From: Ruegeria sp. A3M17
Lineage (GTDB): Bacteria; Pseudomonadota; Alphaproteobacteria; Rhodobacterales; Rhodobacteraceae
Reading direction: 5' to 3'
Assembly (NCBI RefSeq): GCF_003318255.1
Contig: NZ_QOCF01000035.1
Span: 1 to 64,000 of the forward strand
DNA: 64,000 bases
The notes beneath the pieces are model-generated. The model worked only from the letters and a program-made list of their open reading frames with translations, was not told the origin of the DNA and did no database searches. Positions 14,431 through 15,077 of this stretch are shown in pieces (the first letter of the stretch is position 1; every line of letters starts with the position of its first letter). The position numbers and the translations under genes are program-made.

Positions 14431-14764
14431 GTTTCGCCTCGGCCTGCTCGAGTTTTTGTGATCTTTTTTACGGATTAGCACGAAGCGTGAACATTTTCCA
14501 AGCGAATTGACAGAGAGCACAAAAACGACAGACCTGTTTCACAGGCGACAAAACGGCCAGTTTGCGACAGGCAAAAGTCTGAAATCGACATGTTTCATGA
14601 AGCAAAAATGGCCAATAAATTAAGGGGTTCTAATGAATCTCGAGCTCTGCAAAAAACGCATAGGACAGTTGCAATTTCCGCTCTTGCACAGCCGATTTGG
14701 CAGCACTAAATGCCGCTCAGATCGAACGATCAAAACGTAAACTTAAACCAGAAGGAAACAGGAT
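14431..14764 (+). promoter_or_regulatory. Divergent control region between ruvC and the DUF1127 gene
   Basis: A 334-bp, relatively A/T-rich stretch with no convincing long gene. It must hold the promoters of ruvC (minus) and the DUF1127 gene (plus). A weak match to a plus-strand promoter is TTGCAC (14684-14689), 16 bases, then CTAAAT (14706-14711). A 35-codon frame at 14633-14740 follows AAGGGG at 14622-14627 and could be a leader peptide, but it has no recognisable features. Confidence 0.35.
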
Positions 14765-14977
14765 ATGGCTGCACTGGACACCACCCGCACCACCACCGGC
14801 TCATTCGGCCTCGTCGGCCGTATCGGCGCAAATTTCGCATCGGTCGTAAACGCCTTTGTCGAATGGAATGACGCCCGCGTGACGCGTAACACGCTGAGCG
14901 GTCTGACAGATCGCGAGCTGGAAGATATCGGACTGTGCCGTGGCGATATTGACGTCGTGGCCGAAGGTCGTCGTTAA
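14765..14977 (+). CDS. Small DUF1127-domain protein
   Basis: A 70-aa basic protein whose C-terminal half is a DUF1127 domain: W-N-D-A-R-V-T-R-N-T-L-S-G-L-T-D-R-E-L-E-D-I-G-L. In Rhodobacter sphaeroides a DUF1127 protein (CcaF1) is an RNA-binding stress factor cotranscribed with sRNAs; other DUF1127 proteins affect phosphate and carbon metabolism. The ATG has AAGGA about 11 bases upstream. The Thr-rich N-terminus is unlike the shortest members. The mRNA 3' region carries a C/T-rich hairpin and a terminator (see next entries), matching the DUF1127-sRNA arrangement. Confidence 0.9.
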   Translation: MAALDTTRTTTGSFGLVGRIGANFASVVNAFVEWNDARVTRNTLSGLTDRELEDIGLCRGDIDVVAEGRR

Positions 14978-15060
14978 GATTTAACACACCCACTCATATG
15001 CCCCTTCCCTCCCTCAGGGGCAAAGCAGAACGCCGCGCATGCAGAATGCGCGGCGTTTCT
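14978..15060 (+). ncRNA. Candidate CcsR/cuckoo-type sRNA in the DUF1127 3' region
   Basis: After the DUF1127 stop comes CCCCT-TCCCTCCCTC-AGGGG (15001-15020), a 5-bp stem presenting a pyrimidine loop complementary to Shine-Dalgarno sequences. A strong terminator hairpin with T-tract follows at once. The known alphaproteobacterial CcsR/cuckoo RNAs lie downstream of orphan DUF1127 genes and show anti-SD motifs of the type CUYCCUCCC in hairpin loops. The position and motif fit; only one such loop is visible here rather than the usual two, and the motif has an extra C. The 5' end, probably made by processing, cannot be fixed from sequence. Confidence 0.5.
15031..15060 (+). terminator. Rho-independent terminator after the DUF1127 gene
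   Basis: Perfect 10-bp stem CGCCGCGCAT / ATGCGCGGCG with a 5-base loop, followed by TTTCT. It ends the DUF1127 transcript. The opposite side reads AGCAGAA before the stem, so it is a poor terminator for the gene coming the other way. Confidence 0.88.
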
Positions 15061-15077
15061 GATTCATTCGCCTGATG

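Follow-up and report, generated by a model that had tools for sequence, protein, structure and literature searches.

A putative single-seed, CcsR-like anti-Shine-Dalgarno element downstream of a DUF1127 gene of Ruegeria sp. A3M17

The DUF1127 gene that lies between ruvC and prmA in Ruegeria sp. A3M17 is followed by a short tail which, on comparative and folding analysis, is probably a 3'-UTR-derived, single-seed anti-Shine-Dalgarno (aSD) regulatory RNA of the CcsR/cuckoo type; we put the probability of this reading at roughly 0.58. The tail consists of two hairpins, the loop of the first is conserved, the locus is syntenic, and the gene has a promoter box in common with the full DUF1127-CcsR locus found elsewhere in the genome. 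The whole stretch of DNA analysed, 64,000 nt of contig NZ_QOCF01000035.1 (positions 1 to 64,000, forward strand), is referred to here as the window.

The DUF1127 locus and its two-hairpin tail

A preliminary description of the window had called a 70-aa DUF1127 gene, and the Pfam match bears this out (Table 1). The gene order ruvA-ruvC-DUF1127-small hypothetical gene-prmA is syntenic in the Ruegeria and Rhodobacteraceae loci examined; in the Ruegeria orthologs the DUF1127 gene is always flanked by ruvC and prmA, and the 70-aa protein shows 76-94% identity among them. The nearest named relatives of the window's gene are found in R. atlantica strains. The locus is old within the family.

Table 1. 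Features of the DUF1127 transcription unit, in window coordinates
Feature	Position	Strand	Basis and remarks
Upstream box TGCA-N6-GCATAG, resembling a transcription-factor site	14648..14663	+	Conserved; ~-70 to -57 relative to the inferred TSS
Candidate promoter CTTGCA-N17-CTAAAT	14683..14711	+	Ortholog alignment; genus consensus CTTG-N17/19-CTAGAT
DUF1127 gene, 70 aa	14765..14977	+	Pfam PF06568, E 5.4e-14
Hairpin 1, UGCCCCU-UCCCUCCCUC-AGGGGCA; aSD loop with seed CCUCCC, 7-bp stem	14999..15022	+	Predicted fold and conservation
Terminator hairpin, 12-bp core 15029-15040 / 15046-15057 with outer pairs; short T-tract	15026..15061	+	Predicted fold, covariation

Hairpin 1 is located between convergent genes. 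The CCCCT/AGGGG hairpin at 15001-15020 that had been recognized in the preliminary description is present in that sequence and at those coordinates, with CCCCT at 15001-15005, a 10-nt C/U loop (TCCCTCCCTC) at 15006-15015 and AGGGG at 15016-15020, although its stem comprises 7 bp rather than 5. The terminator that had been placed downstream of it is likewise present, but its stem runs to 12 continuous bp with an outer extension rather than 10 bp, and the T-tract ascribed to it is short in the window strain (TTTCTGATT); among the orthologs this tract reaches TTTTTTT. The 93-nt tail is predicted to fold at -38.3 kcal/mol, compared to -18.9 kcal/mol for dinucleotide shuffles (z -6.0), the terminator being the main contributor to this stability. 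A simple terminator scan did not include the 15026-15061 hairpin among its calls. The aSD motif is absent from the terminator loop of the window copy, and the earlier observation of one loop only, with an extra C in its motif, holds.

Conservation and distribution of the C/U loop

Loop conservation was assessed in 42 distinct Ruegeria orthologous loci, with dinucleotide shuffles of the same stretches as the null. In 33/42 orthologs, CUCCC is found in the loop of a hairpin that precedes the terminator, compared to 4.2% of shuffles and at most 5/42 in any round, and CUCCC or CCUCC lies in a hairpin loop in 34/42 (shuffle mean 3.3, maximum 10). The preliminary description had named lack of conservation of the loop in homologous DUF1127 loci as the outcome that would tell against its proposal, and these 34 of 42 loci are the reverse of that outcome. 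The exact cuckoo motif CCUCCUCCC occurs in eight of the 42, the seed is missing from the predicted loops of another eight, and in four loci (L019, L033, L070 and L115) a two-loop form is seen, in which the terminator loop also has CCUCCC or CCUCC. Since the loop is kept although, in the adjacent ruvC, median pairwise identity at four-fold degenerate sites is 0.53, its retention does not reflect mere shared ancestry. As measured by these sequence comparisons, conservation of the loop exceeds neutral expectation.

The two stems behave differently in the ortholog alignment: the terminator stem covaries strongly across 37 sequences (e.g., GC in 20 and AU in 17 at one pair), whereas the hairpin-1 stem is kept through sequence, without covariation. 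The case for an RNA structure at hairpin 1 thus rests on folding together with loop conservation. The window copy is a drifted variant, with one C more than the genus consensus has. The near relative L011 has a hairpin loop identical to the window's at 0.74 four-fold identity. In the closest sister of the window, L017 (G019:C72), the C/U loop is kept and the 3' stem arm is broken, reading GGTAC for GGGGC. Given this drift and the stem loss in L017, the element may be weakening in the window strain.

The distribution of the loop beyond Ruegeria was followed on a tree of RuvA, RuvC and PrmA with 114 loci. On this tree, the loop clusters in a single clade (Ruegeria, Falsiruegeria, Leisingera and R. 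pomeroyi), where it is found in 44/57 rows, and is sporadic elsewhere; by parsimony it needs 20 changes on the tree, compared to 37.9 with shuffled labels. Of the 73 loci from outside Ruegeria, 19 carry the loop, against 1.7 in shuffles. Most other genera retain the DUF1127 gene and the terminator without the C/U loop, so the DUF1127 gene does not need the loop, and the loop was probably a later addition to an older gene. Alternatively, it may have been lost repeatedly.

Relationship to CcsR and cuckoo RNAs

The window element has the order expected of a CcsR-like locus. The motif hairpin begins at 14999, on the same strand as and directly 3' of the small PF06568 gene, and the transcription unit ends, as in the cuckoo/CcsR family, in a Rho-independent terminator, here the strong, covarying hairpin at 15026-15061. 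The preliminary reading of a CcsR/cuckoo-type RNA is upheld in this order of DUF1127 gene, aSD-loop hairpin and terminator, but the locus is not the organism's own CcsR/cuckoo (CIN1) locus. This lies on contig C21, where six aSD-loop hairpins come after a different DUF1127 gene (74 aa), five of them having the exact CCUCCUCCC and the last doubling as terminator; the protein encoded there is 36% identical to the window's over 61 aa. The C21-type protein was found in 41/41 Ruegeria genomes searched, and all 30 of the Ruegeria loci of this type that were examined carry 5-8 aSD-loop hairpins. Since the true ccaF1-CcsR array is on C21, the window element represents an additional aSD locus, distinct from that array.

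Nine DUF1127 genes (L001-L009) are present in the genome, two of them with aSD-loop tails; besides the window's, the hairpin follows only the C21 gene and is absent at the other seven. Isolated CCTCCTCCC sites elsewhere in the genome did not have the hairpin arrangement. Two neighbouring CCTCCTCCC motifs occur in 143/198 genomes of the family. In one family genome, a strongly expanded CcsR-like array (L164, G225:C1:334997-336119) has 17 paired-CCTCCTCCC matches in ~1.1 kb.

Cuckoo RNAs were reportedly defined by Reinkensmeier and Giegerich, in 2015, as two to four adjacent hairpins with the motif in each loop. A single motif hairpin is present in the window element, and its loop reads UCCCUCCCUC in place of the exact CCUCCUCCC; on both counts the window copy falls outside that definition. 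Rfam searches at gathering and relaxed thresholds returned no relevant family and only weak chance matches. We built one covariance model from the window element's orthologs (R1) and another from the two-hairpin units of the genus's true CcsR (R2). A covariance check of this kind had been proposed in the preliminary description; with R2 the window element, at 24.8 bits, outscored everything else in the 64-kb window (11.5 for the runner-up), but at orthologous loci terminators without the motif score up to 26.1 bits, so R2 does not discriminate. Some orthologs of the window locus scored 35.9, 30.8 and 29.3 bits with R2. In the window's genome, R1 recovered the window locus; its remaining matches were look-alike terminators and a weak one to the CIN1-type array. 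The main text of the R. pomeroyi sRNA paper makes no mention of DUF1127, ruvC or this C/U motif; the primary cuckoo paper may already list the ruvC-DUF1127 locus.

Among known systems, CcsR1-4 of Rhodobacter sphaeroides are cut by RNase E from the ccaF1 3' UTR, a step in which the DUF1127 protein CcaF1 participates (PMC8625941, PMC10253847). The ccaF1 locus, which is of the CIN1 type, and the window have in common a DUF1127 gene, an aSD-loop hairpin and a Rho-independent terminator on one strand, as well as a C/U loop complementary to Shine-Dalgarno sequences. They differ in that CcsR1-4 are arrays of two-hairpin units and the window has one motif hairpin, in that the window loop lacks the exact CCUCCUCCC and its terminator loop lacks the motif, and in that the window's DUF1127 gene is a paralog at the ruvC-prmA locus, with the genome's true array elsewhere. 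NfeR1/alpha-r14 of Sinorhizobium and relatives resembles the window element in having aSD seeds in hairpin loops and an upstream TGCA-N6-GCAT box, but is a stand-alone sRNA of three adjacent motif hairpins, the three seeds of which are functionally redundant (PMC10746234), whereas the window element lies 3' of a DUF1127 gene. AbcR1 and AbcR2 also have aSD-like seeds, and their targets are transport and metabolic mRNAs (PMC10746234); they are separate sRNAs with their own promoters at an unrelated locus, and on these grounds, rather than by sequence comparison, were set apart from the window element. The window element is best described as CcsR-like, rather than as a CcsR.

Promoter, possible targets and alternative readings

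A generic sigma-70 scan returned no match at the DUF1127 promoter region; the candidate promoter was recognized from the ortholog alignment (Table 1). The CcsR promoter of R. sphaeroides is presumably dependent on RpoHI/RpoHII. All 42 Ruegeria orthologs of the window's gene have the TGCA-N6-GCAT box ~116 bp upstream of the ATG. In other genera, 40/73 orthologs have it, whether or not they carry the aSD loop, compared to 0/73 for a reversed-pattern control. The same box lies 5' of the CcsR locus in 30/30 loci examined (upstream regions L203-L232), in 26 of them at ~-123. The 16-mer TGCA-N6-GCATAG has about seven sites in the genome, which is about chance level, and two of these are the window and C21 DUF1127 promoters. 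Judged by its distribution, the box tracks the DUF1127 gene, not the hairpin. NfeR1, a cuckoo-type sRNA of S. meliloti, is preceded by an LsrB-bound TGCA-N6-GCAT box at -72 to -57 (PMC10746234), which the window box matches in sequence and in inferred position (~-70 to -57). LsrB was not adopted as regulator of the shared box, because it is reported from Rhizobiales only (PMC11975290), and neither was VtlR, the published box of which, GCAT-N3-TG-N3-T, is not an exact match.

The predicted duplex of the window loop motif with GGGAGG is as stable as that of the CcsR loop (-11.8 and -11.6 kcal/mol, respectively), and with GAGGGAGGGA the window loop is predicted to pair at -20.0 kcal/mol. The pattern GGGAGGG-N4-11-ATG has 31 sites in the genome, one of which is the hairpin's own antisense, compared to 7 in the reversed control, so that ribosome-binding sites of this kind are available as potential targets; a candidate among them is the start of a porin-like protein on contig C1 (AAGGGAGGGAAGAATG). 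Autoregulation through the DUF1127 gene's own Shine-Dalgarno sequence was rejected, since the predicted pairing is weak (-4.3 kcal/mol). In the mechanism that we propose, the DUF1127 gene and its tail would be transcribed together from one promoter, possibly under stress, and a tail of ~60-85 nt would be released by processing or would act as part of the DUF1127 mRNA. The C/U loop, through its CCUCCC core, would pair with the G-rich Shine-Dalgarno sequences of other mRNAs and so block ribosome binding. The DUF1127 protein may, in analogy to CcaF1, bind this RNA and aid the processing.

A cis-acting 3'-UTR element also has to be weighed, in which the C/U loop would bind a protein (the DUF1127 protein, a cold-shock protein or Hfq) or govern processing or stability of the DUF1127 mRNA, with no action on other mRNAs. 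The hairpin is linked to just one gene, and aSD RNAs that act in trans less typically have only one seed. RNA binding and effects on mRNA stability are known for DUF1127 proteins such as CcaF1 (PMC10253847), and the weak pairing to the gene's own Shine-Dalgarno sequence, which makes autoregulation there unlikely, leaves protein binding possible. We nevertheless regard a purely cis role as unlikely, though worth keeping in view: what is conserved is specifically the aSD core CCUCCC, with the exact CCUCCUCCC in eight orthologs, and a general C/U site would need neither.

Loss of function in the window's sub-lineage, from an RNA that is functional in the clade, would account for a window loop without CCUCCUCCC, a terminator loop without a seed, the broken stem of the sister L017 and the loss of the loop in several Ruegeria. 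Such decay is improbable, given that the window copy retains a perfect 7-bp stem with an open CCUCCC and that the loop of L011 is still identical at 0.74 four-fold identity. Strong terminators are found at this locus family-wide, with or without the C/U loop, and the position between convergent genes would suit an ordinary intrinsic, possibly bidirectional, terminator in which the C/T-rich stretch is incidental. This explanation is largely refuted by the conservation of the Ruegeria loop, far above both shuffles and neutral divergence, and sits poorly with a C/U loop that belongs to a hairpin of its own, 5' of the terminator; we hold it to be very improbable.

On the preferred reading, that of a single-seed aSD regulatory RNA, we tentatively suggest, at somewhat under even odds, that the 3' UTR of another DUF1127 gene gave rise to a second, one-seed aSD RNA, in parallel to the CcsR array and with a common promoter box, that DUF1127 genes have repeatedly gained aSD tails, and that one seed suffices. 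If this is true, aSD regulatory RNAs would not be confined to multi-hairpin arrays, and genomes that have the full array would also maintain a minimal, one-seed form, adjacent to another DUF1127 gene and under a common upstream box. The locus would then offer a natural minimal test case for the number of seeds that aSD RNAs need and for the recurrent pairing of DUF1127 genes with aSD RNAs.
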